Positions 10,531 through 31,750 of a stretch of DNA of 64,000 nucleotides are shown here, one piece after another (the first letter of the stretch is position 1; every line of letters begins with the position of its first letter). The notes below the pieces were generated by a model. The model was not told the DNA's origin. It saw only the letters and a program-made list of their open reading frames with translations, and did no database searches. The DNA lies in NCBI GenBank assembly GCA_900315125.1, contig OMXT01000047.1:38195-102194 (forward strand). Direction: 5' to 3'. Position numbers and translations under genes: made by a program. This DNA is from an uncultured Eubacteriales bacterium (GTDB lineage Bacteria; Bacillota; Clostridia; Peptostreptococcales; Anaerovoracaceae).

Positions 10531-10581
10531 CAATTTAGTATAGTTTTCGAAATAGATTAGAATATATGGAGAAGTATGTTT

Positions 10582-12384: not shown

Positions 12385-12447
12385 CATGATGCAAATCTGT
12401 AAATTTGAATTCTAATTATGGCATCGCGTTATGCGGGAGGTAAACCA

Positions 12448-13230
12448 ATGAATATAGCAATGATTTTTGCGGGCGGCAGCGGAGTTCGTATGGGTTCGGG
12501 CATCCCCAAACAGTTTCTGCAGATAAACGGCAAACCGATACTAATTCACACAGTGCAGCTCTTTCAATGGCATGAACTGATCGATAAAATTTATATTTCT
12601 ACACTGGAGGATTATATACCCTATGTTGAGGAACTGGTTTCTGAGTATAACCTATCTAAGGTGGCTGCAGTAATCCCGGGGGGCAAAACTGCACAGGATT
12701 CAATATATAATTGCCTGGAAAGAGGAATCAGTGAGAATGATCCGGACAGTATTGTACTCCTTCATGACGGCGTCCGGCCCAGCGTTACCTACGACACAAT
12801 TACAAGGAATATAGAGACTGCTATTAGTAAAGGCAATGCAATAACATGCACACCCTGCTTTGAAACCATTTTGTTGAGCAATGATGGCGAAACGGTAGGC
12901 TCAGTTCCTTACAGAAAAGATACTTATGCGGCTCAGGCTCCCCAGACTTTCCGCCTGGGAGATATCCTGGAGGCACATAACAGAATAAGAGCTACAGAAA
13001 ATGGTTATGAAAATATGGTCGATGCATGTACGATCTGTACTACATTAGGCATCCCAGTACATATGGTGGAGGGCAACAGAGGGAATATCAAGGTCACTAC
13101 ACCAGAAGATGTATATATGTTCAGAGCATTGATTCAATACAGCGAAAATGAGCAGACATTCGGTTTTGGTCTGACAAACAGCAGCAATGCAGTACTGAAC
13201 AGGTTTATGAGAAAGAAGACAGAAAAATGA
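12448..13230 (+). CDS. IspD/TarI family cytidylyltransferase
   Basis: The protein has 260 residues starting MNIAMIFAGGSGVRMG, with PKQFLQINGKPI next and LLHDGVRPSV near residue 110; these are the CTP-binding and catalytic signatures of the IspD/TarI family. The ATG at 12448 is chosen because GGGAGG lies seven bases upstream; the upstream ATG at 12418 has none. It overlaps the next gene by four bases (ATGA). IspD-like enzyme plus SDR is the arrangement used to make CDP-ribitol or a similar CDP-polyol, which fits the TagF-like neighbours. This is the second such gene in the window. Confidence 0.9.
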   Translation: MNIAMIFAGGSGVRMGSGIPKQFLQINGKPILIHTVQLFQWHELIDKIYISTLEDYIPYVEELVSEYNLSKVAAVIPGGKTAQDSIYNCLERGISENDPDSIVLLHDGVRPSVTYDTITRNIETAISKGNAITCTPCFETILLSNDGETVGSVPYRKDTYAAQAPQTFRLGDILEAHNRIRATENGYENMVDACTICTTLGIPVHMVEGNRGNIKVTTPEDVYMFRALIQYSENEQTFGFGLTNSSNAVLNRFMRKKTEK

Positions 13231-14297: not shown

Positions 14298-14300
14298 ATC

Positions 14301-15677: not shown

Positions 15678-15738
15678 CATGCTATTTTCCGGATGGGATA
15701 AGGTGTTTAGAGCTGGCGGAGGTATAAAGTATTATAAT

Positions 15739-17154
15739 ATGAAGAATATTCGTGCAATCGTGTACAACATACACAAAAAGGGCATTTCAGGCACGTTGGA
15801 AACGTATGCTAAAAGAAAAAGTAAAAAGGAAAAAGAAAAGAGCAAGGAAAAGTGCTATGAATGCCTGTATCAAATGTATAGAAACAGAAAATATGCACGT
15901 AAGGGAACAGACAGTGTTCAATACCGCCGGGCGATGCAGCAGGCTCAGGAATATGAGCAGACACTGAAACGCTTAGATCACAAACTATACAGCAAATACA
16001 GGAAGGAAATGATAGAATATTACCTGTTGGAGCTGTACCCTAAGGTTTATGGGAGCATGATTTCAGTACCTGTGAAAAACAAGGTCGTATTTATGGAGAA
16101 GGGTAAGCCGGTCTCTCCCCCTAATTCATATTTCTCAAGTGTACTGAAAAAACAGGGTAAATATGAAGTTGTCATGATGGGCATGGGAAAGCATGAGGTC
16201 TCGGAACTGGAGATCTATGAAAACGGACTCAAGCTAATTCGAGAAATATCCGATGCGAAAGCCGTGTTTATTTCTTCAGCGAACAGCCTCTTTTGCGGTT
16301 TTGATTTTCGCCCGGAGACAAAGCTCATTCAATTGTGGCATGGCCTTGGAATCATTAAGAAAGTTGGCTACAGCACAATTGACAGTAAGGGATTCGGCAT
16401 GAGTGAGGCTGAACGAGAGAAGTATGATCAGTACCGGAATTACAGCTATGTCACGCTGCCGTCTATGGAACAGGCCTGGATCTTTGAGGAATCGATGCAT
16501 ATTCCCGTGGAGTCGGGAAAGCTGGTGCCAGTTGGCGTTGCTCGCACGGATGTTTTTTACCACCCCAAATACATTAATTCGTGCCGTGCAAAACTGATGA
16601 ATGCCTACCCGCAGATCGGGAAAAGGAAAATTATCCTCTATGCTCCTACATACAGAGGACGTTTAAATTCTGCGGTCGCGCCGGAAGCTTTAGACATTAA
16701 TTTGCTCGGTGAAATGTTCTCAGAGGAATATGTCCTGCTCATAAAGCATCATGGGGCTACAAAAAAGGATATAAGCATCCCTGAGAAATGGAAGGATAGT
16801 TTCGCCTTTGATATAAAGAAAAGCAAAGTACTGAGTATAGATAAGATGCTTGCCATCGCAGACATATGTATAACAGACTATTCATCAGTCGCCTTTGAAT
16901 ATTCGATCATGGAGAAGCCGATGATCTTTTTTGCTTTCGATTTGGATGAATATATTGACAGCAGAGGCATGTATTATAAATATGAGGACATCACTCCGGG
17001 TCCAATCTGCAGAACAAACGAAGAACTTGCGGATAAGATCCGAAGCGTAGATGAATGGTTTGATCTCCAGGGTATCAGAGATTTTAAAGAAAAATTTGTT
17101 GGCGCCTGCGACGGTCACAGCGCGGAGCGAACCATTGAGCTCATTGAAAAATAA
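15739..17154 (+). CDS. CDP-glycerol glycerophosphotransferase (TagF-like), duplicate of the 3161 gene
   Basis: This 471-residue protein is closely similar along its whole length to the one at 3161-4552, including YEVVMMGMGK, SDAKAVFISSANSLF, LIQLWHGLGIIKKVGYST near residue 196 and CITDYSS near 376. The start at 15739 matches the paralogue's N-terminus; GGAGG lies 16 bases upstream, further than usual, and an in-frame ATG at 15679 would add 20 poorly conserved residues. It is the last gene of the operon, followed by a terminator. The pair is a recent duplication on two sides of the cluster. Confidence 0.9.
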   Translation: MKNIRAIVYNIHKKGISGTLETYAKRKSKKEKEKSKEKCYECLYQMYRNRKYARKGTDSVQYRRAMQQAQEYEQTLKRLDHKLYSKYRKEMIEYYLLELYPKVYGSMISVPVKNKVVFMEKGKPVSPPNSYFSSVLKKQGKYEVVMMGMGKHEVSELEIYENGLKLIREISDAKAVFISSANSLFCGFDFRPETKLIQLWHGLGIIKKVGYSTIDSKGFGMSEAEREKYDQYRNYSYVTLPSMEQAWIFEESMHIPVESGKLVPVGVARTDVFYHPKYINSCRAKLMNAYPQIGKRKIILYAPTYRGRLNSAVAPEALDINLLGEMFSEEYVLLIKHHGATKKDISIPEKWKDSFAFDIKKSKVLSIDKMLAIADICITDYSSVAFEYSIMEKPMIFFAFDLDEYIDSRGMYYKYEDITPGPICRTNEELADKIRSVDEWFDLQGIRDFKEKFVGACDGHSAERTIELIEK

Positions 17155-19095: not shown

Positions 19096-19972
19096 CATTT
19101 TCACCTCCCAGCTCGTAAATAAATATCTCTTCCAGCGTCAGGGGGAGCATGTCAAATATCACAGGATCATGCTTCTGAATCTGATCTTCAATCTCTTCCG
19201 CTGTTCCCCGGATAATCAGAAGGTCGATGCTCCCGCGGCGCTCCCGGCGGAGCACGTCAAGCTCGTTATAGAAGTCTGAGGAATCCACGGTGCTCCCATA
19301 GGCGGCCTGGACTTTGTGAAGATTGCCCCTCAGCTCGTCGTAATCCTGCTCCAGGAACATCTTTCCGTGAGAAAGGATGCCTATGTGGTCGCAGATTCCT
19401 TCCAGTTCCTTCAGATTGTGAGATGAGACGAGAACGGTCATGGAACGGGCAGCCACATCGTCTACGATCGTATTCCAGACCATGCGCCGAACGATGGGAT
19501 CCAGCCCGTCTATGGGTTCATCCAGCAGGAGATATTCCGGCTCTGACGCCAGAGCAAGGCAGAACATGGCCTGCTTCTTCATTCCTTTGGAAAATGTCTG
19601 CAGGCGGGCAGTCGGATTCAGGTGGAACATTCCGACAAGATCCCGGAAACGTTCCTCGTCCCAGGACGGATAAAAGCCGGAATAAACGGCGCTCATATTT
19701 TTCAGCGTATATCCCTGGGGAAAATACAGCTCATCCGGGATCAGAGCAATTTTCGATTTCAGCTCTGTGTTTTCCCATATCTCTGCACCGTCATACAGAA
19801 TCTCGCCAGTGTCCGGGCGGAGAACGCCCGACATGGTCTTTATCAATGTTGTTTTGCCTGCACCGTTTATTCCGATCAATCCGTAAATCGAGCCGGTGGG
19901 AACGGTCATGGAGAGATCGCTCAGGGCAGGAAAACCATCAAATTTCTTGTTTATTCCTTTTAGTCTGATCAT
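19070..19972 (-). CDS. ABC transporter ATP-binding protein
   Basis: The 300-residue ATPase has GINGAGKTT (Walker A) near residue 36, the signature FSKGMKKQ near 131, LLLDEPIDGLD (Walker B) near 153 and SSHNLKELEGICDHIGIL near 187. The C-terminal 80 residues are typical of drug and bacteriocin exporters of the DRA/YtrB kind. Its start overlaps the stop of the GntR gene by four bases, and its end overlaps the permease gene, so the three are tightly coupled. Confidence 0.93.
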   Translation of the reverse strand: MIRLKGINKKFDGFPALSDLSMTVPTGSIYGLIGINGAGKTTLIKTMSGVLRPDTGEILYDGAEIWENTELKSKIALIPDELYFPQGYTLKNMSAVYSGFYPSWDEERFRDLVGMFHLNPTARLQTFSKGMKKQAMFCLALASEPEYLLLDEPIDGLDPIVRRMVWNTIVDDVAARSMTVLVSSHNLKELEGICDHIGILSHGKMFLEQDYDELRGNLHKVQAAYGSTVDSSDFYNELDVLRRERRGSIDLLIIRGTAEEIEDQIQKHDPVIFDMLPLTLEEIFIYELGGENDEINELLF

Positions 19973-20373
19973 TTACTGCTCTCCTTTCTGTCGGTTCCGC
20001 CTGCGGCTTGCCCTATGGCGCTGCAGGTGAATTCCCATGCTTGATCCGCTGTCAGTCCAAGGTACAGCAGCTGCCGGTATCCGCTGCGGATCAGTTCCTG
20101 GGCCTGCTGTATCTGAGCAGGATCAGGCTGTATGCCGGAGCGGGGAGCAACGAAGGTCCCCCGGCCGGAAACGGTAAAGACATATCCCTCCCGTTCCAGT
20201 TCCCTGTAGGCTTTCTGTACTGTATTCGGATTGATCGTCAGCTGTCTGGAGAGTTCTCTGACCGAAGGCAGCCTGGTGTCTTCCGGGAGAACGTCAGTCA
20301 TGATCAGCTCCTTAAACTTGTCGATCACCTGTTCATAGATGGATCGGCTGCTTTTTCTGTCAAGCTGAAACAT
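19969..20373 (-). CDS. GntR family regulator (YtrA type)
   Basis: The 134-residue protein has a GntR winged helix in its first 70 residues (SIYEQVIDKFKELI, LPSVRELSRQLTINPNTVQKAYRELEREGY) and a short C-terminal tail with no large effector domain, as in YtrA regulators. GGAGG lies six bases before the ATG. YtrA-type repressors control the ABC transporter genes next to them, and a perfect palindrome lies in this gene's own promoter. Loss of repression would turn on the whole operon. Confidence 0.92.
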   Translation of the reverse strand: MFQLDRKSSRSIYEQVIDKFKELIMTDVLPEDTRLPSVRELSRQLTINPNTVQKAYRELEREGYVFTVSGRGTFVAPRSGIQPDPAQIQQAQELIRSGYRQLLYLGLTADQAWEFTCSAIGQAAGGTDRKESSK

Positions 20374-20403: not shown

Positions 20404-20432
20404 AGTGTACTATGATAAATAGTACACGTCAA
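20404..20432 (-). promoter_or_regulatory. Promoter of the GntR-ABC operon
   Basis: On the minus strand TTGACG (20427-20432), a 17-base spacer and TACACT (20404-20409) lie about 30 bases upstream of the gntR start. The spacer is filled by the operator palindrome. Confidence 0.75.
20405..20427. promoter_or_regulatory. GntR operator palindrome
   Basis: GTGTACTA, seven bases, then TAGTACAC form a perfect dyad with eight-base arms. It covers the spacer and the -10 box of the gntR promoter, as expected for autorepression by a YtrA-type regulator. Confidence 0.75.
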
Positions 20433-20442
20433 GCATTTCGGC

Positions 20443-20488
20443 AAAAATAAAAAAACTCCCCATCGTGCCGAAATGGCAGGTGAGGAGT
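20443..20488 (-). terminator. Terminator of the BKACE/acyl-CoA synthetase operon
   Basis: On the minus strand ACTCC...TGCCA pairs with GGCA...GGAGT around TTTC and is followed by a run of T. It lies about 130 bases after the stop at 20621; nothing else is seen in 20489-20620. Confidence 0.75.
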
Positions 20489-20620
20489 GTTAATCCAGTC
20501 GATGTTCTTTAACTTCAGGGATTCCAGTAATCGTTGTGTTAAGCCGGGGAATGCCTTCTGTTTTGCCGGACGCAGCGTGAATAAGAAAGCGCCTGTTATC
20601 TGATCTCCTGGATAAACATA

Positions 20621-21469
20621 TTAATTTTCTTTGCCCTTGTAATGGTTCTTCATATTGGCTTTAAACATCTCGCGGACATCGTCAGATGTTGCTACCTCTC
20701 TCTGCAGTTCCTTCGCAAGGCGTACAGCCCGCTCTACGAGCTGGGTGTTCGACTCGGCTTTAACACCGTGAGAATAGTAGATATTGTCTTCCAGGCCGAC
20801 GCGGGCTCCGCCGCCCCAGAGAAGAGCCTGTGTCATAACAGGTATATGATATCTTCCGACGCCGAAGGCACTCCATGTGCAGCCTTCCGGAACTCTTCTT
20901 ACCAGAGCCCACATCATTTCAGGGTCGTACTGTACGCCGCCCTTTGTACCGAAAATCAACTGGAAATGAACCGGTTTCTGCAGGATCCCTTCTTTGATAT
21001 AATTGACAGCCTGATCCATCATGCCGAAGTCGAAAATTTCAACCTCTGGTTTGATGCCCAGTTCTTGATCCAGTTTACCCAGTTTTCTCAGGAAATTCGG
21101 TGAATTGTACATGATCTCAGAGTATCCCCAGTTCATGGTGCCGCAGTCGAAGGTCGCCATTTCCGGTTTGATGATCGGAAGGTGAGCCATGCGGATCTCG
21201 TCGCCGGCAGTGATGTCGCCGGATGTTGTTACATTGAGGACGATGTCGCATTTTTCACGGATGCGTTCACAGGTCTCGATAAATTTCGCGGTTTCCATGG
21301 TTGGCTTTTCTGCATCATTTCTCACGTGAATATGAGCGATCGAAGCGCCTGCCTGATAGCATTCATAGACGGATTCCGCGATTTCAGCCGGTGTGATCGG
21401 CACAGCCGGGTTCATTTCTCTTGTGGTATCTTCTCCTGTAGGTGCTATGGTAATTATTGCTTTATCCAT
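20621..21469 (-). CDS. Beta-keto acid cleavage enzyme (BKACE, DUF849; Kce-like)
   Basis: The 282-residue protein belongs to the BKACE family, TIM-barrel zinc enzymes that react a 3-keto acid with acetyl-CoA to give acetoacetate and a shorter acyl-CoA. The family's opening APTGEDTTREMNPAVPITPAEIAE region, the zinc ligands in AHIHVRN near residue 47 and VGLEDN near 230 are present. Known members cleave 3-keto-5-aminohexanoate (lysine fermentation) or dehydrocarnitine. No other lysine-fermentation gene lies nearby, whereas the sister operon encodes a hydroxyacid dehydrogenase and a methylamine-type methyltransferase, so a dehydrocarnitine-like substrate is favoured. It is the third gene of a sigma-54 operon. 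Confidence 0.9.
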   Translation of the reverse strand: MDKAIITIAPTGEDTTREMNPAVPITPAEIAESVYECYQAGASIAHIHVRNDAEKPTMETAKFIETCERIREKCDIVLNVTTSGDITAGDEIRMAHLPIIKPEMATFDCGTMNWGYSEIMYNSPNFLRKLGKLDQELGIKPEVEIFDFGMMDQAVNYIKEGILQKPVHFQLIFGTKGGVQYDPEMMWALVRRVPEGCTWSAFGVGRYHIPVMTQALLWGGGARVGLEDNIYYSHGVKAESNTQLVERAVRLAKELQREVATSDDVREMFKANMKNHYKGKEN

Positions 21470-21480
21470 TATTAGCCTCC

Positions 21481-22161
21481 TTAAAGTATAACTCTGGCGT
21501 CAACAACTTTTACTCCGTCTTCGTAAACAAAGACAGGGTTGATGTCTAATTCTTTAATTTCAGGATTGTCCTGAACCATGTCAGCAACGCGGCAAATCAG
21601 GTCTGCCACTGCGTCAACGTCCTTCGGCGCACTGCCCCGGTATCCGGTCAGCAGTTTGGCTCCGCGGATCTGGCTGATCATTTCGTAGGCTTCGTCCTTT
21701 GTGATCGGCATGAGCTGCAGTGACACATCTTTCAGAACTTCGACGAAGATTCCTCCGAGACCAAACATGATCACGTTCCCGAACTGGTCGTCTTTGTTCA
21801 TACCCACGATGCATTCCAGTCCCTGCTCTGCCATTTCCATGACATTGATGCCGGCGATTTCAGCATTCGGGGCCTTCTCCGCTGCAGATGTCAAAATATT
21901 TCCATATGCCTTTCTGAGGGCATCCTCGTCTGCCAGTCCTGCAGCGACGCCGCCCACGTCAGATTTGTGTACGATATCATGAGAACTGATTTTCAGCACA
22001 ACAGGGTACCCGATATCTGCTGCGGCCGCGGCGGCTTCGTCCGGTGAGTGGGTCAGTCTGCATTTTGGCGTATTGATGCCGTATTGCGAAAACAGCTCCA
22101 TGGCATCCGGCTCAAGAAGGTTTGTATATTTTCCCATCGATTGTTCAATGATCCTGTTCAT
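21481..22161 (-). CDS. ADP-forming acyl-CoA synthetase, beta (ATP-grasp) subunit
   Basis: The 226-residue ATP-grasp protein has YPVVLKISSHDIVHKSDVGGV near residue 55, GMNKDDQFGNVIMFGLGGIFVE near 125 and ELDINPVFVYEDG near 208. This is the beta subunit type of NDP-forming acyl-CoA synthetases, which make ATP from ADP, phosphate and an acyl-CoA. It lies two bases after the alpha subunit gene. Pairing with a BKACE suggests it harvests the CoA ester that the BKACE releases. Confidence 0.92.
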   Translation of the reverse strand: MNRIIEQSMGKYTNLLEPDAMELFSQYGINTPKCRLTHSPDEAAAAAADIGYPVVLKISSHDIVHKSDVGGVAAGLADEDALRKAYGNILTSAAEKAPNAEIAGINVMEMAEQGLECIVGMNKDDQFGNVIMFGLGGIFVEVLKDVSLQLMPITKDEAYEMISQIRGAKLLTGYRGSAPKDVDAVADLICRVADMVQDNPEIKELDINPVFVYEDGVKVVDARVIL

Positions 22162-22163
22162 TC

Positions 22164-23519
22164 TTAAGCCTCCTTTTCTATCTTGGTGTCCAGCAGATGA
22201 CTGAGGGCCTTGACTGCCCGTTCCGGCGTGGGAAAGACCGGAATCCCTGCGGCGCTCATTTCGGCAACCTCCGCAGCCTGGACAGAACCGCCGCCCAGAT
22301 AGCTTACGATCAGGGAGATCCGGCCGTCCTCCTTTACCTTCTGCGCAACTTCCGCAGCCCCGGGTATGGGGTCTCCGTAGATCATCAGAAGGGTGCCGTA
22401 TCCCAGCTTATCCGCATACTGGCATATAATATCTGAAGCGTCGCCGTAGCGTTCGGAGGTGGCGTCGCCGGTCAGGTCAAGGGGATTGGAGATCACGCAC
22501 TGCGAGGGCAGACTATCGCGGAGCGGTGCCTTCGCTGTTTCGGAAAGGGGCATAATATCTACTCCGTTTTCATCCGCTGTATCTGTAGCCAGGATCCCCG
22601 ATCCTCCGCTGCTGGTCATGATAAGCAGTTTGTTATTCGGCGGACACGGGAGCATGGCGGCCAGCTTGCAGCAGTCGTACATCTCTGTGATATCGTTGGC
22701 ACGGATGATTCCGTATTTTTTACAGAAAACGGAGAACAGTGCGTCATTTCCAGCCAGAGATTTCGTATGGGAGGCAACAGCGACCTGTCCCTTGGCGGTA
22801 CGGCCCGGCTTGAGGATCACGACGGGTTTCTTTTTTGCGGCTTTGATGACCGCTTCCTGAAAACCGGATCCCTTTGCGATGCCTTCGATGTTCAGGGCGA
22901 TGACTTTCACATGAGGATCTTCTACGAAGAAATTAATAAAGTCGACTTCCGTAATATCTAATTTGTTGCCGAGAGCTGCGAAGCAGGTTACACCGATTCC
23001 TTCTGCTTCTGCCCGGAGTTCGATTTCCGCTCCAATGGTCCCGCTCTGTGTAACAAGACCGATGGCGCCCTGAGTAATTACAACAGGCCATGTGGCACAC
23101 ATCTGGTTTGCTGTATAATTGATGCCCTGGCAGTTCGGACCGATGATTCTCATACCGTATTCCCGTGCGATGGACAGCAGTTCTGCTTCCATGTCATCGT
23201 TTCCAATTTCGCGGAATCCTCCGCTGATAATAATTGCGCCCTTAACGCCCTTCTTACCGGCTTCCCTTAATGTACCGGCAACAGCTGCAGCAGGCACGCA
23301 GACCACGATCAGGTCGATGCTTCCTTCTACATCAGACAGACTTTTATAGCAGGGCAGTCCCATAAGTTCAGGTTCCTTGGGGTTGATTGGGTAAATCTTT
23401 CCCTGAAAACCTCCTTCGATGAGATTGTTCAGGAGCTTGTGGCCCATCTTGCTGGGCTTTCCTGATGCGCCTACTACTGCGATGGAGGAAGCGTATAAAA
23501 TGTCTCGTAATGTGTACAT
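22164..23519 (-). CDS. ADP-forming acyl-CoA synthetase, alpha subunit
   Basis: The protein has 451 residues from the ATG at 23519, which has AAGGAG six bases upstream; the longer frame to 23582 would read through the promoter. It contains the CoA-binding domain (SIAVVGASGKPSKMGHKLL near residue 12, PINPKEPELMG), the IIGPNCQGI motif of the ligase domain near 130 and VASHTKSLAGND near 245. The family passes a phosphate between a histidine here and ADP on the beta subunit. It is the first gene of the operon, transcribed from the sigma-54 promoter just upstream. The reaction direction expected for catabolism is acyl-CoA to acid with ATP formation. Confidence 0.92.
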   Translation of the reverse strand: MYTLRDILYASSIAVVGASGKPSKMGHKLLNNLIEGGFQGKIYPINPKEPELMGLPCYKSLSDVEGSIDLIVVCVPAAAVAGTLREAGKKGVKGAIIISGGFREIGNDDMEAELLSIAREYGMRIIGPNCQGINYTANQMCATWPVVITQGAIGLVTQSGTIGAEIELRAEAEGIGVTCFAALGNKLDITEVDFINFFVEDPHVKVIALNIEGIAKGSGFQEAVIKAAKKKPVVILKPGRTAKGQVAVASHTKSLAGNDALFSVFCKKYGIIRANDITEMYDCCKLAAMLPCPPNNKLLIMTSSGGSGILATDTADENGVDIMPLSETAKAPLRDSLPSQCVISNPLDLTGDATSERYGDASDIICQYADKLGYGTLLMIYGDPIPGAAEVAQKVKEDGRISLIVSYLGGGSVQAAEVAEMSAAGIPVFPTPERAVKALSHLLDTKIEKEA

Positions 23520-23566
23520 CTCCAACTCCTTCGATATTTCAGCAATATTTTCTGAATAATTAAAAA

Positions 23567-23581
23567 GCAAGATGCGTGCCA
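23567..23581 (-). promoter_or_regulatory. Sigma-54 promoter of the acyl-CoA synthetase/BKACE operon
   Basis: On the minus strand the sequence is TGGCAC, five bases, TTGC: a perfect -24/-12 element with the required GG and GC. It lies about 50 bases before the ATG at 23519 and directly after the terminator of the regulator gene. Confidence 0.88.
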
Positions 23582-23608
23582 AAAAAAAGCCGCTGCTGGT
23601 GCAGCGGC
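23581..23608 (-). terminator. Rho-independent terminator of the sigma-54 activator gene
   Basis: GCCGCTGC and GCAGCGGC pair around four bases, followed on the minus strand by eight T. The T run touches the -24 element of the next promoter, so the two units are insulated with no spare sequence. Confidence 0.9.
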
Positions 23609-23636
23609 AGAATGAACTCCAATGCCTGTTGGGTAC

Positions 23637-25031
23637 TTACTTTTTCTGGACGTATTTTTTTATTTTCCGAGCTGCCGTAGGCTGGCTGATTCCCAGCACC
23701 TTGCTGACGGCGACCGTACTGCCGTACTGGCTGTATGCGTTTCTAATAATGTTCTGTTCGTATAATTCCAGCATCGTAGTCAATCCGTATTTTCCATTGT
23801 CTGCGGACTGCAACTTGGGCAGGAGCTGGGCGGGAATCGTGCTCAGGGTGACATAGTCATCGGTTCCGGTCACGACGATGCGCTCAATGATATTCTCCAG
23901 TTCTCTTGTGTTTCCGGGCCAGCTGTACATCATGAGAAGCTGCTGGACTTCCGGGGCGATGACACGCTCCAGGCCGTATTTCTTGTTAGCCTTGCGCAGA
24001 AAAACGGTGATCATAGCCTGGAGATCCTCGTGCCGTTCGCGCAGCGGCGGGATTTCCACAGGAATGCCGTTTATCCGGTAATAAAGATCTTCCCGGAACC
24101 GGCCGTCGGTTATCATATCCTGCAGATTCCGGTTCGTTGCAGTGATCAGGCGGAAGTCTACGTCAATCGCGCGGGTTCCACCGACACGGCGTATCCTTTT
24201 TTCCTGCAGTGTATGAAGCAGCTTGACCTGCAGGGAGAGAGACATCTCACCGATTTCATCCAGGAACAAAGTACCGTTATTCGCGATTTCTATCAGACCG
24301 GTCTTTCCCTTCTTGTTGGCACCGGTGAAGGCGCCGCCTTCATAGCCGAAAAGTTCGGATTCCAGAAGATTTTCTGATATGGCGCCGCAGTTGATCTCTA
24401 CGAAAGGGCCCTCGCATCGGCTGCTGAGCTGGTGGATGGACTTGGCAATAAGGCTCTTTCCGACGCCGGTTTCCCCGGTGATTAATATGTTGATGTCTTT
24501 CGGAGCGATCCGTTTGATCAGAGAAACCACCTGCTCCATCTGGGGACTTTCGGCAATGACATCGGGGAGGTTCATGTTCATACGCCGCAGTTCCTCGATT
24601 TCTGCAGAATAGCGTTCGTTCTGCGCGGCAAGGCGGTCGTACTTGTCCTGTATCTCTGAAAAATCACCGACGTTCCAGGAATCGTAACTGATAATCCAAA
24701 TCAGGTCGCCTTCGTCATTAAATATAGGCACACCCGAAGTGAGGATGTGTTCGCCCTTCTTATTATACTGAAGGATCTCTTCTCGTTTATGGGACTGAAG
24801 GACCTGGAGGGAAACGGAAGGGCGGAATACACCGGATTCTTCCAAATCTCTGGCACTCATGCCCACAGCTTCTTCTGCCGGGATGCCGCTTTTTTCTGTC
24901 CAGCTTCTGCTTACCCATCGTACGATTGCGCTGCTGTCCATGATACATACATCCTGTAAAAGTACATCGGTAAAATAAGAAAACAGCTCGGAAAATTCCT
25001 TTTCTGCCATTACGTCGAATAATGAGTTCAT
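23637..25031 (-). CDS. PAS-AAA-Fis sigma-54 enhancer-binding protein
   Basis: This 464-residue activator has a PAS-type sensor domain at about residues 10-125, a short coiled coil, and a sigma-54 AAA+ domain from about 155 to 400 with ITGETGVGKS (Walker A) near 184, GAFTGA near 234 (the loop that contacts sigma-54) and GTLFLDEIGEMSL (Walker B). A Fis-type helix-turn-helix ends the protein (GSTVAVSKVLGISQPTAARKIKKY). No response-regulator receiver is present, so a small molecule bound by PAS is the likely signal. It lies between the two operons with sigma-54 promoters and is probably their activator. Confidence 0.94.
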   Translation of the reverse strand: MNSLFDVMAEKEFSELFSYFTDVLLQDVCIMDSSAIVRWVSRSWTEKSGIPAEEAVGMSARDLEESGVFRPSVSLQVLQSHKREEILQYNKKGEHILTSGVPIFNDEGDLIWIISYDSWNVGDFSEIQDKYDRLAAQNERYSAEIEELRRMNMNLPDVIAESPQMEQVVSLIKRIAPKDINILITGETGVGKSLIAKSIHQLSSRCEGPFVEINCGAISENLLESELFGYEGGAFTGANKKGKTGLIEIANNGTLFLDEIGEMSLSLQVKLLHTLQEKRIRRVGGTRAIDVDFRLITATNRNLQDMITDGRFREDLYYRINGIPVEIPPLRERHEDLQAMITVFLRKANKKYGLERVIAPEVQQLLMMYSWPGNTRELENIIERIVVTGTDDYVTLSTIPAQLLPKLQSADNGKYGLTTMLELYEQNIIRNAYSQYGSTVAVSKVLGISQPTAARKIKKYVQKK

Positions 25032-25058
25032 GGTATTCCCCCCCTGCTATCGTCAGAA

Positions 25059-25074
25059 TATTCAATAGTGAATA
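25059..25074. promoter_or_regulatory. Activator-type dyad 1 (TATTCA-N4-TGAATA)
   Basis: TATTCA, ATAG, TGAATA form a perfect dyad located just downstream of the -10 box of the regulator's own promoter. That position suits autorepression by the enhancer-binding protein. Confidence 0.65.
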
Positions 25075-25083
25075 ATTGTTACT

Positions 25084-25113
25084 ATTATATCTCTGGCGCC
25101 GGTGAGAAGTCAA
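25084..25113 (-). promoter_or_regulatory. Sigma-A-type promoter of the sigma-54 activator gene
   Basis: On the minus strand TTGACT (25108-25113), 18 bases and TATAAT (25084-25089) lie about 55 bases before the ATG at 25031. The dyad at 25059-25074 covers the expected start of transcription. Confidence 0.72.
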
Positions 25114-25178
25114 GCGGCAAATCATTGCTTTTGTTTGTTGAAATTGCACGGCTTGCAACGAAAAGTCAGAAAATTAAA

Positions 25179-25194
25179 TATTCAGCCGTGAATC
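25179..25194. promoter_or_regulatory. Activator-type dyad 2 (TATTCA-N4-TGAATC)
   Basis: TATTCA, GCCG, TGAATC differs from the other two copies at the last base only. Its centre is 19 bases from dyad 3, about two helical turns. Confidence 0.65.
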
Positions 25195-25197
25195 GAA

Positions 25198-25213
25198 TAT
25201 TCAATATTGAATA
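25198..25213. promoter_or_regulatory. Activator-type dyad 3 (TATTCA-N4-TGAATA)
   Basis: A perfect dyad whose centre is about 105 bases upstream of the -24 element at 25310, the usual distance for a sigma-54 upstream activating sequence. With dyad 2 it would seat two activator dimers on nearly the same face of the DNA. Confidence 0.7.
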
Positions 25214-25309
25214 GAAGTTGATCGAACTGGATGTGCGAATTTCGTGAAATTTCTTTCGAATCTGGTCAAATAAGACTTTGTTCTACTCGGAAAATCAACA
25301 AGAAAAATT

Positions 25310-25324
25310 TGGCACGGTAATTGC
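25310..25324 (+). promoter_or_regulatory. Sigma-54 promoter of the dehydrogenase-symporter-methyltransferase operon
   Basis: TGGCAC, five bases, TTGC match the -24/-12 consensus exactly. It lies about 50 bases before the ATG at 25375. The same hexamer and tetramer with the same spacing are found at 23567-23581 on the other strand. Confidence 0.9.
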
Positions 25325-25374
25325 TAATTTATTTTGCTATAAAAACAGTTTATATGGAAGGAGACGCAGACATC

Positions 25375-26352
25375 ATGAAGCAGAAGATAGCAGTACTTGG
25401 ATCGGGCACCATGGGACACAGCATTGCAGCCGCGTATGCCATGGGAGGCCACCCGGTCAACCTGTATGACATCAGTGATGAGATCGTAAAAACAGGGCTC
25501 AGCAAGATAAAGATGGACCTGGATGTCATGGTGAAACTTGAGTATATGACCCAGGAGGAGGAAGACGGGGCGATCGCCTGCATTACGCCTCATTCAGATC
25601 TCAGGACAGCGACGGAAGACAGGGATTATATCATCGAAGCGATCCCTGAAAACCTGGAACTTAAGAAGGAAGTTCTTTCCCAGCTGGATTCCTGGTGTCC
25701 GCCTGAAACGATTTTCGCAAGCAATACGTCCAGCATCAAGCTGGAAGATATGGCAGAGGCAATTTCTCCGGATAGAAAGAAGCGCTTCGCCGTCAATCAC
25801 TGGTTTAATCCGGCGCATATTGTGCCGCTGGTAGAACTTTCGGATTACGGTAATACGGATCAAGACGTTCTGAAGGAAATCTACGACATGCATGTGGCGC
25901 TGGGAAAGGCTCCTGTATACGTGTACAAAGACATCCCCGGCATGCTTGCGAACCGTCTGCAGCAGGCGGTGCTGAGAGAAATGTTTTATCTTGTTCAGAT
26001 CGGCGCGGCGTCTGCTGAGGATCTCGACCGGACGATCCAGTACGGACCGGGTTTCCGTTACCCGATTGCGGGGCCGATCCGCATTGTAGATTACGGCGGG
26101 TCTGATATCTGGTGCGTCGAAGCGGCAAACCTGCTTCCGGACATGGATGATTCCAAAGAGCCGAATCCGCTGTTCAAGGAAAGATTGGAAACAGGGACTC
26201 TTGGCCTTAAGACCGGCAGAGGATTCTATGACTTTACCGGAATGGATGTGGATGAAATCAACAGGAAATTTAACGAAGACATGATCCGCCAGCTGAAGCT
26301 GACACACGAATATTTTATGCAGGGGAGAGACGGAGAGGTAAGCGAGATGTAA
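25375..26352 (+). CDS. 3-hydroxyacyl-CoA dehydrogenase family protein (possible L-carnitine dehydrogenase type)
   Basis: The protein has 325 residues from the ATG at 25375, where the dinucleotide fold begins (MKQKIAVLGSGTMGHSIAAAYA). The longer frame from 25321 would start inside the promoter. SNTSSIKLEDMAEAI near residue 120, the catalytic histidine in NHWFNPAHIVPLVEL near 140 and GMLANRLQQAVLREMFYLV near 190 place it in the 3-hydroxyacyl-CoA/L-carnitine dehydrogenase group. The C-terminal part (GPGFRYPIAGP) is not that of a plain 3-hydroxybutyryl-CoA dehydrogenase. It would oxidise a 3-hydroxy acid to the 3-keto acid cleaved by the BKACE. Carnitine or a demethylated relative is the best guess. 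Confidence 0.85.
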   Translation: MKQKIAVLGSGTMGHSIAAAYAMGGHPVNLYDISDEIVKTGLSKIKMDLDVMVKLEYMTQEEEDGAIACITPHSDLRTATEDRDYIIEAIPENLELKKEVLSQLDSWCPPETIFASNTSSIKLEDMAEAISPDRKKRFAVNHWFNPAHIVPLVELSDYGNTDQDVLKEIYDMHVALGKAPVYVYKDIPGMLANRLQQAVLREMFYLVQIGAASAEDLDRTIQYGPGFRYPIAGPIRIVDYGGSDIWCVEAANLLPDMDDSKEPNPLFKERLETGTLGLKTGRGFYDFTGMDVDEINRKFNEDMIRQLKLTHEYFMQGRDGEVSEM

Positions 26353-26389
26353 ACAGTTTCATTTTGTAAGGAAACAGGGGGAAAAAAGA

Positions 26390-26512
26390 ATGGGTGAAAT
26401 AATTGTAAGTATATGTACTGGGTTATGTCTGGTCGTGCCGGGGGTATTTTTAAGAATCTGGCTGGGGAGAGAAGCGAAGAAGAATGGTGTTCAGGATATT
26501 GACGGGGAGTAA
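26390..26512 (+). CDS. Small membrane protein, symporter-accessory type (40 aa)
   Basis: This 40-residue reading frame starts at the ATG at 26390, with AGGGGG eight bases upstream, and stops 21 bases before the symporter gene. Residues 4-25 (IIVSICTGLCLVVPGVFLRIW) form one hydrophobic segment; the rest is charged. Tiny proteins of this size and layout lie next to SSS-family transporter genes in other bacteria and are annotated there as symporter small accessory proteins; the assignment here rests on position and shape. It probably binds or stabilises the SSS protein encoded next. Confidence 0.72.
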   Translation: MGEIIVSICTGLCLVVPGVFLRIWLGREAKKNGVQDIDGE

Positions 26513-26533
26513 AAAAGAAAGAAGGGGTTCATT

Positions 26534-28144
26534 ATGGATACTTATTTGTTTATCGTTATTCTAAGTATCGCTGCCTACGTCCTCGTCGGTATGTTTGCGG
26601 GGAGAAAAGTTGCAAGCACTGCGGACTACTATGTGAGCGGACGGAACGCGCCGACGGTCCTGATTGCCGGAACGCTGTTCGCGTCTATGGTCAGCACGAA
26701 CAGTTTTATGGGTGACTGCGGATGGGCTTATTCCGGCAACTTCGCCAATGAGCTTTATCTCAGCGGCATCTGCGCCATGGGATTTGTATTCGGCGTCGTA
26801 TTGTTCGGAAGATTTCTGCGTCGATCCGAAGCGCTGACCATGCCGGAGTATTTTAAGCGGCGTTTCAATGATTCCAGAATGCAGAGACTGGGCGGCATCG
26901 TCGTGGTGATCTCTCTGATCTGCTATCTGCTGGCAGTAACGACTGGCGTCGGCACGCTGCTGAATGCCATGCTGGGATGGCCTTCCTGGGTCTGCTATAT
27001 CGTGGCATATGCCTGTTTTATGTCATTTACTCTCTATGCAGGGTCCAAGGGCGTTATCATCACCGATACGATGATGTTTTTGATTTTCCTGTTTGGTTCA
27101 CTGATCGCCGGGCCCTATATGTGGTCTCATACGGACGGTCTTACCGGGCTGTTCCGGATCCTCGTTGAAAAAGCGAACGAGCTGCCTCAGGGATTTCTGG
27201 ATTACCATGGTAATTTCGCCGGCGCTATGGCCACCAATGCATTCGGCGCTGTGCTTTACGGCATAATATACGGAGTGATCTGGTTTATCGTTGTGGGCAT
27301 TTCACCCTGGCAGGCGGGACGTTTCCTGATGGCGAAATCAGAGCATGTAGCACTCAGAGCTTCGACAATAGCCTGTGCCTGCGAGGTCATATTCTGTACT
27401 TATCTGTTCTTCGAATCACTGACCGTTAACGCACTGGAGGCAGCGCCGCTGGCGGCGAGCGAAACGGTAATGATCTATGCGTGCTACCACTATGTGCCGA
27501 AGATCATTGGCGCGGTCGTTTTGGCAGGCATTATGGCTGCCGGATTGTCCTCCGCGTCCACATTCCTGTCGGTATCCGGTTTTTCGCTGGTGAACGATGT
27601 GCTCCAGCTGAAATTCAAGGATGATAAGGATCAGCTCAGAAAGACCCGCATCATCATGATACTGATCGGACTGACTGCCCTTGGACTTTCCTTCTTCGGC
27701 CTCGGCGGCGTCCGGATCGTAACCTGGTTCGCGTCCACAATCGTCGCGGCATCCTGGGTCGTAACATGCTTCGGCGGCGTGTGGTCAAAGAAACTGACAG
27801 CGCAAGGCGCCAGATGGTCTATGGTCACAGGGTTTGTTACATTCTTTGTGTGCAAGGCGCTGCAGGCTACCGGCGCCGTCACTATATTCACAAACTTCCT
27901 GGATCCGTTCTTGATGGCTGTTTATCTCAGCATCGCTGCGGCAGTCTTGGGATCGAGAGAACAAAAACCTTCACCGGAAGAAACCGAGTTTCTGGAGAAA
28001 CTGCATGTGCTGCCGGAAAGTCTGAAGAAAATGTCGGAATACAGGCGGGATTATGTTTACTGCTATATTCTGATCGGCCTTGGTATTGTATGGACATGCG
28101 TTCTCCTGTTTATCTGGGCGCTGCCCTATAACGGAATAATCTAA
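26534..28144 (+). CDS. Sodium:solute symporter (SSS family)
   Basis: This 536-residue protein with about 12-13 membrane segments has the SSS pattern: ADYYVSGRNAPTVLIAGTLFASMVSTNSFMG near residue 33, GISPWQAGRFLMAKSEHVALRASTIA near 255 and AGIMAAGLSSASTFLSVSGFSLVNDV near 335, where sodium-site residues lie in the family. The ATG has an AAGAAGGGG ribosome binding site. It is placed between the dehydrogenase and the methyltransferase, so it probably imports the substrate of the island. Carnitine importers are more often BCCT or ABC proteins, so the substrate is open. Confidence 0.93.
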   Translation: MDTYLFIVILSIAAYVLVGMFAGRKVASTADYYVSGRNAPTVLIAGTLFASMVSTNSFMGDCGWAYSGNFANELYLSGICAMGFVFGVVLFGRFLRRSEALTMPEYFKRRFNDSRMQRLGGIVVVISLICYLLAVTTGVGTLLNAMLGWPSWVCYIVAYACFMSFTLYAGSKGVIITDTMMFLIFLFGSLIAGPYMWSHTDGLTGLFRILVEKANELPQGFLDYHGNFAGAMATNAFGAVLYGIIYGVIWFIVVGISPWQAGRFLMAKSEHVALRASTIACACEVIFCTYLFFESLTVNALEAAPLAASETVMIYACYHYVPKIIGAVVLAGIMAAGLSSASTFLSVSGFSLVNDVLQLKFKDDKDQLRKTRIIMILIGLTALGLSFFGLGGVRIVTWFASTIVAASWVVTCFGGVWSKKLTAQGARWSMVTGFVTFFVCKALQATGAVTIFTNFLDPFLMAVYLSIAAAVLGSREQKPSPEETEFLEKLHVLPESLKKMSEYRRDYVYCYILIGLGIVWTCVLLFIWALPYNGII

Positions 28145-28268
28145 TTTCTACTAACAAGAAACTTTAGTATGTGATAACATTGTTGAATAATTCTGAGAAC
28201 ATATCTTGGAATCTATTATTTCTATTTGTTTATGAAAAGTTATTGTAATGAGAAAAGGAGAAAGGCTT

Positions 28269-29666
28269 ATGAGTGATGGTAACAAAAAGTACCTGACGCG
28301 CATGGGCGATGGTGAAGCGGTTCAGCTGACGATGGACGAAATCAGAGCTGAAGTCCTGGAAGGCATGGGTGACGCGGTGGATCGCGGAAAAGCCAAGCCA
28401 TTGGATGAATCTGACATCGACCGCCTCGTTGAGATCCTCACCATGCCGGAAAATGCAGTAAGTGTCAGGCCGGAAGATGAAGTGGTTACTACATTTGATG
28501 CAGGCACGCTGAAGCTGCCGGTAAGATCGCTGATCCCGGTAGACCGTTCAACGGACGTGCTGATTCACGAGCGAGTGCTTTGTTCAGATTCCATGGAACT
28601 CTGTTCTACGGATTACAGCTATAAGGCGCTGAAAAACATCGTGGCAGAGGAAGTCATGGGAATGGAGCAGGCGCTGCAGACGTCCATTATCCCGCTGTTC
28701 TACGGCGCCATGCCGAACATGGGCCTCTACACCATGCCGGATGGACCGGTTCCCAACTGGTCGGAGCTTCTTCCTCAGGGGAAGATCAAAGAGGCCATGG
28801 AAGCCCAGGAAAAAGCGGCAGAGATGTGCTGTCATGATATGGTTCGGGTCTGCTCGGCACTGGCAGAAGCCGGCGCAGACGGCATCCAGTTTGATACGGC
28901 AGGAGCATCCGGAGACGCGGATTTCCTGGCTGCGCTGAATGCCTCGAAGATCCTGAGTGAAAAGTATCCGAATCTGTATATTACTATGGGACATTCCAAT
29001 GAATATACGCTTGGAATGCACGGAAGACTGAAGTTTGAAGGCGAACGTCTGGCAGGAACCTATCCGGTCAAACAGGTGAAGATCGCCGAAAAAGCTGGCG
29101 TCAAGAGTTTCGGCGCGGTCATAAATACGAATTCGAGTAAAACATTTGCCTGGAATCTGGCGAGAGCAGTAACCTACGTAAGAGAAGCTTCGGAAGCGGC
29201 GGACATTCCTCTTCTTGTGGATGTAGGCATGGGTGTAGGAGGCGTGCCTCTTACTAACGTCTGCCCGATTGACGCGTCGACGAGAGCATCCAAAGCGATG
29301 GTCGAGATCGGTAAATGCGACGGATTGTAGATAGGCCATGGTGATGGCTATGGTATGGCAATCGGCCATGAAGTTGCCGCAGGTATGGGCGGGATCCGTA
29401 CAGCCGGAGATCTGGTTGCAAGGATGGTCTTCAATGGCATGCGCATAAACGAAGCAAAAGAATACGTTGCCGGCAGGCTGAAGTGCGCAGTAAGTGATCT
29501 TTCCGATGCTGCATTTATGAGAGATCTCAGGGAAGAACTCGACATAGGCGGCACCGTGATCGTACCTCACAAATCTTACGGCATGGCGGCGAAAATCAAG
29601 ATCGCGGAGATCCTCGGCATCGAGATCGCCAGCGTGGAACGCTTTAAAAAGCAGATCGGTTTTTAA
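28269..29666 (+). CDS. mtbB: MtbB-type dimethylamine methyltransferase with in-frame UAG (pyrrolysine)
   Basis: The ATG at 28269 has AGGAG eight bases upstream. The first open stretch ends at a TAG at 29328-29330, codon 354. In the same frame homology continues at once (IGHGDGYGMAIGHEVAAGM, then AAGDLVARM and REELDIG) to a TAA at 29664-29666. Read through, the protein has 465 residues, the length of dimethylamine:corrinoid methyltransferase MtbB, whose pyrrolysine (near residue 356 in methanogens) sits in the same context after VDGI/CDGL. NMGLYTMPDGP, GADGIQFDTAGASGD and NLARAVTYVREA also match MtbB. The TAG is therefore read as pyrrolysine, not as a broken gene. The true amine substrate here may differ from dimethylamine. 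Confidence 0.93.
29328..29330 (+). other. In-frame amber codon, predicted pyrrolysine
   Basis: TAG at codon 354 of the mtbB-type gene is flanked by family-conserved residues on both sides. No tRNA-Pyl or pyrrolysine synthesis gene is seen in this window. Confidence 0.88.
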
Positions 29667-29687
29667 TCAGGTCTCAATCTTGAACAG

Positions 29688-29747
29688 GCGGCAACCCTGG
29701 ACAAACTGCCGGAGCAGGGCCTCTGAGGCGGAATGTCCAGGCGCCGC
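29688..29747 (+). other. Stem-loop between mtbB-type gene and corrinoid protein gene
   Basis: GCGGC (29688-29692) and CCTGGACA (29696-29703) pair with TGTCCAGG (29734-29741) and GCCGC (29743-29747), giving a long hairpin with a small internal loop. No T run follows, so it is not a normal terminator. It may protect or process the mRNA and set the ratio of the two proteins. Confidence 0.6.
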
Positions 29748-29818
29748 AGTTCTTGGGAGACAGACGCAGAAAACCACAATTGTGAATGAAGAATGAATAT
29801 TTTATAAGGAAATTTGCG

Positions 29819-30472
29819 ATGAGTAAAGACGCGATTTGGGACAAGGCGAAGCAGTCGGTCATCGACGCTGATGAGGACATGGCGCTGGAAGCGCTCCACG
29901 AAGCAGAAGCGGAAGGACTGAACCTGATGGAGCTTCTTGGTACAGGATACGGCGCAGGGATGCAGGAACTGGGTGATCAGTTCGGGCGCGGAGAGATTTT
30001 CCTGCCGGAACTTATCTTCGCGACGCAGGTCATGAAGACAGCAAGCGATGAAATTGAGAGCAAGATGGATACATCGGAAGATGTTCCTACTGCCGGGACA
30101 CTGGTTCTTGGAACCGTAGAAGGCGACGTGCATGATATCGGCAAGGGGATCGTTGCAGCATTGGTTAAAACAAACGGTGTAGAGGTTCATGACCTTGGCC
30201 GTGAAGTGCCTGCGCAGAAATTTGCTGAGGCGGCAGTAGAATATAATGCCGACTTTGTAGGAAGCAGTGCGCTGCTGACGACAACGATGACGGTACAAAA
30301 AGATATTGAAGACGCGCTGCAGGAAGCAGGAATACGGGATAAAGTGAAGACAATGGTAGGAGGCGCGCCGGTAACAGCCCGCTGGGCAGAAAAAATAGGA
30401 GCCGATGCTTATTGCGAGGACGCCTCAGATACGGTAAATTACATTCTGAAGTGTGCTGACGCAGCGGAATAA
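29819..30472 (+). CDS. Methyltransferase corrinoid protein (MtbC/MttC type)
   Basis: The protein has 217 residues from the ATG at 29819 (AAGGA upstream); the frame from 29786 adds residues the family lacks. Residues 1-85 are the helical cap domain, and the B12-binding domain follows with GTVEGDVHDIGKGI, whose His105 is the expected lower ligand of cobalt, GSSALLTTTM near 155 and MVGGAPV near 182. It accepts the methyl group from the pyrrolysine methyltransferase and hands it to a second methyltransferase. That enzyme and the reductive activator (RamA type) are not in the window. A terminator follows. Confidence 0.94.
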   Translation: MSKDAIWDKAKQSVIDADEDMALEALHEAEAEGLNLMELLGTGYGAGMQELGDQFGRGEIFLPELIFATQVMKTASDEIESKMDTSEDVPTAGTLVLGTVEGDVHDIGKGIVAALVKTNGVEVHDLGREVPAQKFAEAAVEYNADFVGSSALLTTTMTVQKDIEDALQEAGIRDKVKTMVGGAPVTARWAEKIGADAYCEDASDTVNYILKCADAAE

Positions 30473-30478
30473 GATAAT

Positions 30479-30518
30479 AAACCCGCGGGGATCAATGTAC
30501 GTCCTGCGGGTTTGTTTT
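30479..30518 (+). terminator. Rho-independent terminator of the methyltransferase operon
   Basis: AAACCCGC and GCGGGTTT pair around an inner loop, followed by TTTGTTTT. It ends the 25375-30472 unit and faces the convergent SppA-type gene. Confidence 0.85.
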
Positions 30519-30560
30519 ATGTTTATTATCAAAGAAAGAGCTTTCCTCTGCTTCTGCTGT

Positions 30561-31694
30561 CTATTTCCGGATCTGGGAGAGATAGGCGACGGTGAATGTC
30601 TGTCCGCCGCTGATCAGCGAGCGGAGCTCTTCATATTCGGAAAGGGTGCCGGCAGGACTGTTCTGTGTGTCCTGGCTGCTGCCGGAGGCATCGCTGCGCA
30701 TTTTCCGCGCGGCGACGCCGAGAATGCTCTCCACCAGGCCGGGCTCTTCGTCATATTGGATGGTTTTCACAGGGGTACTGCTGAGATGACAGCGGGTCCT
30801 CATATCTTTTACGGCGCTTTCGTAATCAGCTACCTGGTCTACCAGCCCCAGCCTGTATGCCTGTTTTGCCGTATAAATCCTGCCGTCGGCAAGGCGCCGG
30901 ACCTTCTTTTCGTCCATGCTGCGGCCTTCAGAAACGATGCCTACGAACTGGTCGTATGCCTCGTCTACCAGTCCCTGGAGGATCGCTTTCTGTTCCTTCG
31001 TCATTTCTACCTCAGGGCTTCCCATGGCTTTATTTCTGCCGGAAGTAATCGTCACTGTGCGGACGCCGAGTTTCTTGAGCAGACCTGTGACGTCGTACAT
31101 TGTGCCCAGCGTTACGCCGATAGAGCCGGTCCAGCAGTTGCGGTTGGCAATGATGCGGTCTGCAGGGGCGGAGATATAATAGCCGCCGGAAGCGGCCTCG
31201 CTTGCCATGTAGGAATAGACGGGCCGATGGGTCGCGCTCTGGTATTCTTTTATTTTGTTATAAAGCTCATCCGCAGCATAGACGGAGCCGCCAGGGGTGT
31301 TGAGAAAGAGTATGATGCCTTTGTTATGGCTGTCATGCTCCATCTCGCTGATCCTGTCCAGGAGCCACTGGTGGTGGTATGTGCTGCTCTCCAGGAGGCT
31401 GCTGCTCCCGCTTTCTGATATGGTTCCCTGGATGTCAAGGCGTCCGATATAGTCCTCGCTGCAGTCTATGGTGCCGTTTTCCGAAACGAGTATGGTATCG
31501 CCGCTGCCCTTATCTGAAGTGACGAGAGCGGTGATCACCGCAGCAGCGGCGATAACGGCGAGGACAATAAGGAAAACGATAATTTTTCTGTGTTTTCTCC
31601 GGGGGCGATCCGGGCCCTTCGGGCCGCCGGGCGCGGGTCCGGGAGCGGGAACGCCGTATTTCGACGCGTCATAGGTGTTGACTCTCTCTTCCAT
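30561..31694 (-). CDS. sppA: Signal peptide peptidase A (SppA) family serine protease
   Basis: The protein has 377 residues from the ATG at 31694, which has GGAGG upstream. A Pro/Gly-rich cytoplasmic N-terminus is followed by one membrane helix near 37-59. The peptidase S49 domain has LFLNTPGGSVYAADELYNKI, the nucleophile region YMASEAASGGYYISAPADRIIA, and GSIGV. The catalytic lysine is probably in the GRNKAMGSPEVEMTKEQ region. It degrades cleaved signal peptides or other membrane peptides on the outer face; in Bacillus a relative protects against lantibiotics. It is transcribed alone. Confidence 0.9.
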   Translation of the reverse strand: MEERVNTYDASKYGVPAPGPAPGGPKGPDRPRRKHRKIIVFLIVLAVIAAAAVITALVTSDKGSGDTILVSENGTIDCSEDYIGRLDIQGTISESGSSSLLESSTYHHQWLLDRISEMEHDSHNKGIILFLNTPGGSVYAADELYNKIKEYQSATHRPVYSYMASEAASGGYYISAPADRIIANRNCWTGSIGVTLGTMYDVTGLLKKLGVRTVTITSGRNKAMGSPEVEMTKEQKAILQGLVDEAYDQFVGIVSEGRSMDEKKVRRLADGRIYTAKQAYRLGLVDQVADYESAVKDMRTRCHLSSTPVKTIQYDEEPGLVESILGVAARKMRSDASGSSQDTQNSPAGTLSEYEELRSLISGGQTFTVAYLSQIRK

Positions 31695-31721
31695 GATAAA
31701 ATCCTCCTTCTGACTGAGGAA

Positions 31722-31750
31722 ATTATAGCATCGGCATATCATACAGTAAA
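31722..31750 (-). promoter_or_regulatory. Promoter of the SppA-type gene
   Basis: On the minus strand TTTACT (31745-31750), a 17-base spacer and TATAAT (31722-31727) lie about 28 bases before the start codon. Confidence 0.7.

Follow-up and report, generated by a model that had tools for sequence, protein, structure and literature searches.

A gene of a separate MtbB-family clade, with an in-frame amber codon, in a candidate carnitine-type island of an Anaerovoracaceae genome

The closest described relatives of the gene considered here are the canonical MtbB methyltransferases, found in methanogens and, beside pyl operons, in Anaerovoracaceae. The available portion of one report (PMC9768040) ties pyrrolysine methyltransferases so far only to archaeal methanogenesis from methylamines and leaves open the enzyme pair that handles dimethylglycine in Formimonas warabiya. 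A second known system comprises MtgB and the other non-pyrrolysine members of the MttB superfamily (PF06253), which lack an amber codon and, in the literature excerpts available, have trimethyl substrates; the legend of an mtgB-cluster figure, the available part of PMC8547467, includes the gene symbols mtbB and mtbC. A third is the bacterial carnitine-to-betaine route, with carnitine dehydrogenase, a beta-keto acid cleavage enzyme (BKACE, also KCE) and betainyl-CoA according to the accessible text of PMC12482172. Here we describe an MtbB-family corrinoid methyltransferase gene (28269-29666, + strand) with an in-frame amber codon at the pyrrolysine position, in a 64,000-nucleotide stretch of DNA from an uncultured Eubacteriales bacterium of the Anaerovoracaceae. 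This whole stretch, bases 38195-102194 of contig 63 (OMXT01000047.1), is called the window below; the genome (G000) is a 2.3-Mb assembly of 101 contigs listed as 98% complete. Within the MtbB family the gene falls in a separate branch, designated MtbB*.

The frame comprises 465 codons and a terminal TAA, and its sole internal stop is the TAG at codon 354 (bases 29328-29330, +). Direct reading, with both sides open, thus agrees with the sequence-only reading that preceded this analysis. Genetic code table 11 cuts the frame into open reading frames (ORFs) 28248-29330 and 29355-29666, the false split that had been foreseen. The homology that was said to run past the TAG extends end to end: the read-through protein matches PF09505 at 580 bits (cut-off 25; profile positions 2-463 of 463) and TIGR02368 at 483 bits (curated cut-off 369; profile positions 4-466 of 466). 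The gene is therefore a full-length member of the MtbB family, over the curated cut-off, with its amber in the conserved pyrrolysine column, and it reads without frameshift, second stop or broken near-invariant column. A match to Rfam RF02509 PYLIS_2 (mtbB) at 29328-29427 (+; 65.1 bits, gathering threshold 36) may largely restate this homology. Among the window's 56 non-overlapping ORFs of at least 120 aa, 12 end in TAG, the MtbB* ORF counted. The other 11 are followed by no more than 35 open codons in ten cases and by 377 in one (4649-5455), where the next gene occupies them.

The same TAG stands in the same column in 36/36 copies from family genomes (38 loci, minus the frame-broken L119 and minus L120, which has no MtbB) and in 50 of 52 named loci. 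Some loci belong to both sets; the second excludes L204, a 40-residue match, and the list of MtbB genomes excludes G018 and G059, which fall under the family cut-off. Since the codon is conserved in its column across relatives, sequencing error or chance is not a credible source of it, and the assignment of the amber to the pyrrolysine position stands. The exceptions among the 52 are L197, which is frame-broken, and L198. The latter (10001-11377; JADQBM010000005.1, from the metagenome-assembled genome Soudan_22) is an MtbB homologue with leucine at the pyrrolysine place (DGL-L-IGTGDPFGN); it groups with three amber-bearing copies and is possibly a non-pyrrolysine MtbB.

The predicted fold of the MtbB* protein has a pLDDT of 94.9. 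Its strands (72-76, 108-111, 143-148, 205-211, 237-242, 280-282, 315-320 and 352-355) can be read, by eye, as the eight strands of a barrel, the last of which contains residue 354; as the TAG would lie within that strand of a confident model, termination there should yield a dead protein. Structural neighbours of the model include MetH, an M. mazei methyltransferase and BHMT. MtmB and MttB are not among the 50 structural matches listed, which is no evidence against a relation. A PDB sequence search gave no MtbB relative at E 0.001, and a single-protein scan of genome contigs gave eight stretches that fit a pattern, none of them a relative.

In a tree of 43 MtbB proteins (the window copy and 42 of the 52 named loci), the window protein and those of L153-L161 form one clade of 10 rows with support 100/99. 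The grouping recurs, with 6 rows and support 100/100, in a second, partly overlapping tree built from 37 family rows. Five genomes (G066, G133, G140, G141 and G195) carry MtbB* together with a copy of a 27-row group that holds the pyl-linked copies. Canonical MtbB and MtbB* belong to the same Pfam and NCBIfam family end to end, share the amber position and have a corrinoid gene nearby, but their identity is only about 50%. The commonest canonical form after the amber is [IV]GVGDP[LVF]G, compared to [IV]GHGDx[YF]GM in MtbB*, and the clade-specific residues include H357, three residues past the amber, in 10/10 MtbB* rows, as well as residues at 105-112.

The neighbourhoods differ as well. A BCCT or sodium:solute (SSS) transporter gene is present in 6/9 of the other MtbB* loci compared to 1/42 other MtbB loci, and a sigma-54 activator gene in 9/9 compared to 7/42; the 42 exclude L204 and L197, and the flanks are bounded by contig ends. 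An MtbC-type relative is found in 7/9 other MtbB* loci (not L155 or L161). The name that the sequence-only reading had given the gene, dimethylamine methyltransferase MtbB, is thus right as to family, whereas dimethylamine may be the wrong substrate, given the separate clade, the different neighbours and the different residues beside the amber codon. Its observation is confirmed and its interpretation partly supported.

Individual MtbB* loci add to this picture. In Anaerovorax IOR16, MtbB*, a corrinoid gene and the gene of an amber-free MTTB protein are flanked by two BCCT genes, so that this MTTB protein, which is of a different family, shares the MtbB* neighbourhood there. L161 has a full gcvT-H-PA-PB set downstream of MtbB* on the same strand, and the Formimonas warabiya genome carries the MtbB* member L159. 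Exact sigma-54 sites number four in 168 kb of the nine other MtbB* loci compared to none in 177 kb of control stretches; in two of the nine (L156 and L157) such sites immediately precede the corrinoid gene. The closest MtbB* found (75%) belongs to RUI027 (JAILDT010000062.1, L153/L235), where a sigma-54 activator gene and a corrinoid gene stand directly upstream. Unlike the window, this stretch continues from MtbB* into RACE-tRNA-Pyl-pylB-pylC-pylS-pylD (pylB, pylC and pylD named from ORF reading) and has no BKACE gene, no alpha-subunit gene of the ADP-forming acyl-CoA synthetase (ACD-alpha) and no gene of the 3-hydroxyacyl-CoA dehydrogenase family (3HCDH). MttB was not found in the RUI027 genome; a whole-genome search for further MtbB or MtmB was not made there.

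Other MtbB clades show variety of their own. One 2.1-Mb genome (G141; L084, L091-L095) holds six amber-bearing MtbB genes of several clades, with neighbourhoods that differ where compared. A further clade (L163, L171, L192 and L205; two of the four titled Syntrophomonadaceae) has GVGD[TP]FSL after the amber; L163 holds a BKACE relative (11394-12191), and both L163 and L205 hold ATP-grasp synthetase relatives.

In the window, the MtbB* gene lies in an insert of approximate extent 20430-30540, between a GntR gene (19969-20373) and an S49 peptidase gene (30561-31742). In three genomes of the genus (G198, G174 and G142) this site is empty: the ffh-adjacent S49 gene and the GntR-ABC genes are immediate neighbours, their aligned ends 183-260 bases apart, compared to about 10 kb at the same junction in the window. 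The comparison covered seven of the 17 genus genomes; the other four (G199, G207, G197 and G093) keep S49-ffh and are uninformative on the insert boundary because GntR is not at that place. A chimeric assembly was rejected, since both flanks are syntenic with the three genomes.

The insert holds two operons. On the + strand, an exact sigma-54 consensus (TGGCAC-N5-TTGCW, 25310-25325) precedes genes for a 3-hydroxyacyl-CoA dehydrogenase family protein (25375-26352; its PDB relatives are 3-hydroxybutyryl-CoA dehydrogenases) with a putative carnitine-dehydrogenase-like role, an SSS symporter (26534-28144), MtbB* and a corrinoid protein of MtbC/MttC type (29819-30472). The symporter is 49-51% identical to those beside MtbB* in L090, L091/L155 and L154, and similar symporters (53% and 50%) accompany MtbB genes from another clade in L084 and L085. 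On the - strand are genes for BKACE (20621-21469; its PDB relatives are KCE enzymes) and the ATP-grasp beta subunit (21481-22161) and alpha subunit (22164-23582) of an ADP-forming acyl-CoA synthetase. A second exact consensus (23566-23581, -) overlaps the alpha-subunit ORF as listed, and the true start of that gene is probably downstream of the promoter. Also on the - strand is the gene of a PAS-domain sigma-54-dependent activator (23637-25031), PrdR-like although under the PrdR cut-off; a terminator-like site (23608-23589) follows it, just upstream of the second consensus. Between the operons, palindromes TATTCAATANTGAATA at 25059-25074 and 25198-25213, with a weaker copy at 25176-25194, are candidate activator sites. 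The exact consensus occurs twice in the 64 kb, once ahead of each operon, compared to 0.04 expected (0/100 shuffles reach two); the looser TGGC-N7-TTGCW gives four exact matches, with 1.4 expected. Judged from these patterns, the two sites would act as promoters and the palindromes as binding sites for the activator.

The corrinoid protein, a putative cognate partner of MtbB*, has both B12-binding Pfam domains over cut-off; it scores 212.6 bits on TIGR02370, just under the cut-off of 215.3, and 219 bits on NF041607, under the cut-off of 350.

These features led us to propose that MtbB* is a pyrrolysine-type corrinoid methyltransferase that would transfer one methyl of a dimethylamino acid, at best guess N,N-dimethylglycine, to the corrinoid protein. 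The activator would turn on both operons, the symporter would import carnitine or norcarnitine, and the dehydrogenase would oxidise the 3-hydroxyl of the imported compound. BKACE would then convert the keto acid and acetyl-CoA to acetoacetate and (di/tri)methylglycyl-CoA, the ADP-forming acyl-CoA synthetase would regain ATP from the thioester, and MtbB* with its corrinoid protein would demethylate dimethylglycine. The presence of a 3-hydroxyacyl dehydrogenase relative and BKACE/KCE resembles the carnitine-to-betaine route, from which the island would differ by a two-subunit ADP-forming synthetase for the CoA ester and by a corrinoid demethylase. In this role UAG 354 must be read as pyrrolysine, because a stop there deletes 111 residues together with the final strand of the barrel. 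Lysine fermentation via KCE was rejected as a setting for MtbB*, with no other gene of that route recognised among the island's annotated proteins.

The glycine cleavage genes, BCCT transporters, MTTB neighbour and carnitine-like island have N-methylated glycine as a common theme, of which dimethylglycine would be the natural dimethyl member. This comparison of neighbourhoods makes a dimethylamino acid, dimethylglycine or one like it, the likeliest candidate substrate of MtbB*. Norcarnitine is listed among gut demethylation products in the accessible part of PMC10653893 and, by analogy, could yield dimethylglycine through the same island. The open-licence literature searched, as far as its available text extends, yielded no description of an MtbB-type dimethylglycine methyltransferase. 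We regard a dimethylamino-acid demethylase in a regulated carnitine-like island as an evenly balanced proposition. The fuller statement, that the substrate of the clade is a dimethylamino acid (dimethylglycine, possibly norcarnitine) and that the enzyme is here part of a carnitine-type island transferred without the pyl operon, is put forward tentatively and with somewhat more doubt.

Several observations, on the neighbourhood and on the decoding machinery, weigh against this proposal. MTTB relatives occur near 7/9 MtbB* and 34/42 other loci and, being similarly frequent, are no mark of the clade. BKACE, ACD-alpha and 3HCDH relatives are present in 0/9 other MtbB* loci, so the carnitine-like setting is unique to the window genome among them, and BKACE and ATP-grasp relatives also stand beside MtbB genes of another clade (L163 and L205). 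The dehydrogenase and BKACE of the island score under every specific curated NCBIfam cut-off, although they belong to their Pfam families. In L161 an opposite-strand ORF separates MtbB* from gcvT. As no MttB-type enzyme was found in the window genome, the sources left for dimethylglycine there would be norcarnitine and import, not betaine via MtgB. The corrinoid protein, in a tree of 34 chosen rows, is sister (98/89) to one from G198 (L227:6828-7454) and not to the partners of the MtbB* clade, and MtbB is reported to be partner-specific in the available part of PMC9842639. The G198 gene lies in a methylamine island, beside an amber-bearing MttB and about 8 kb upstream of pylB, which suggests that such an island was once present in this lineage or supplied it with genes. 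RACE and a second methyltransferase had no match on the window's contig, the only contig searched.

In the case of the decoding machinery, the pylS and pylT that the sequence-only reading would have sought in the same genome did not turn up. PylSc gave no match over the TIGR02367 cut-off (best 33, next 23.6 bits), PylD reached 23.5 bits (cut-off 150), and tRNA-Pyl was not found by model R1 with 150 of 1107 first-look candidates scored (150 per genome throughout); the assembly being a draft of 101 contigs, absence is not proven. Weak PylSc matches also occur in control genomes, where the search gives a signal in 13/14 and one over cut-off, and those in the window genome are probably other class II synthetases. 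PylSc is over cut-off in all 25 of the other family-sample genomes that carry MtbB and in 7/9 further MtbB genomes (32/34). It is not over cut-off in G208, which is 89% complete in 220 contigs, or in G210, whose contig numbers reach at least 388 and which has tRNA-Pyl. PylD is over cut-off in 23/25 of the family sample (not G112 or G182). Model R1 detects tRNA-Pyl in 12/12 PylSc genomes tested and in G210; it found none in G208 or in five genus members without MtbB. A match to a tRNA-Pyl pattern was discarded: the pattern gave one 3-mismatch match in the window genome, without CTA anticodon context, and a reversed control also gave one. PylB and PylC had no match in the window's contig and four small loci of its genome, the only parts compared, the RUI027 pyl proteins had none on that contig, and an ARAGORN search of the window detected no tRNA. 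In two other genomes tRNA-Pyl lies between RACE and pylB (G212:C92 17785-17856, L220; G209:C22 8999-9070, in L235), in contrast to genomes such as G165 and G192, where it follows pylD.

The pyl genes usually lie in one operon, and 8/25 family PylSc contigs are shorter than 25 kb; a single gap could therefore account for all three absences. On a rough judgement, three misses in 35 genomes seem about what incompleteness would give. Against this, a gap is unlikely a priori in a genome that is 98% complete. On balance we lean slightly towards an assembly gap, with true absence from the cell a lesser yet substantial possibility.

If the pyl operon was lost or never received, MtbB* would be a stranded orphan, truncated and non-functional in an otherwise working island. 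This explanation is compatible with a dimethylamino-acid substrate for the clade, and we consider it possible though doubtful. It draws on the missing PylSc, PylD and tRNA-Pyl, on MttB and MtmB, which were likewise not found in the window genome, and on the genus, where 14/17 genomes have no MtbB (it is present in G000, G198 and G208). Private changes after the TAG number 12 in the window copy and 5 in its sister RUI027, compared to 24 and 25 before it; this excess is in the direction of decay without reaching significance (Fisher p 0.16), and dN/dS is unusable for a decay test, since synonymous sites are saturated and ratios of 0.000 reflect that saturation. The intact reading of the gene argues against decay, the three absences may be one event, and no orphan is proven: PylSc is over cut-off in each MtbB genome of the sets that consists of one contig (G071, G088, G164, G192, G195 and DCMF, G211), the G192 match being split over two frames.

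An ordinary bacterial dimethylamine methyltransferase with coincidental neighbours would fit both the score over the TIGR02368 'dimethylamine' equivalog cut-off and the adjoining corrinoid protein of methylamine-island type. However, TIGR02368 fails to separate the clades, as the canonical-type copy of L104 scores about alike (475 bits), and the well-supported clade split, the five genomes with both types and the differing transporters and regulators make this explanation unlikely. Ordinary amber suppression, with a non-pyrrolysine residue at the TAG, could appeal to L198, whose leucine implies that the family may tolerate a sense codon, and to the unseen PylSc and tRNA-Pyl. General suppression would hit many genes, though, given the TAG-terminated share of window ORFs; no tRNA was found in the window, and the genome-wide search covered the tRNA-Pyl pattern and model only. 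We consider it highly improbable. That an error or a chimeric contig made the TAG, as a draft in 101 contigs might allow, is contradicted by the shared column and the syntenic flanks and is practically negligible.

Elsewhere in the window, 615-17154 looks like a surface-polymer (teichoic-acid-type) cluster: it combines five genes for CDP-glycerol glycerophosphotransferase with genes of the ABC transporter, LytR-CpsA-Psr, IspD-like and pyruvyl transferase types, and its G+C is lower at the right end.

Standard gene calling, by splitting the MtbB* gene in two, would overlook the island's demethylase. Should the pyl operon really be absent, the locus would be a natural case of a code-expansion gene parted from its decoder. 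If the proposed role of MtbB* is true, pyrrolysine methyltransferases would extend to a substrate class beyond methylamines, and an amber-containing MtbB clade with betaine-type transporters would be a concrete candidate for the missing dimethylglycine-demethylation enzyme of anaerobic bacteria.
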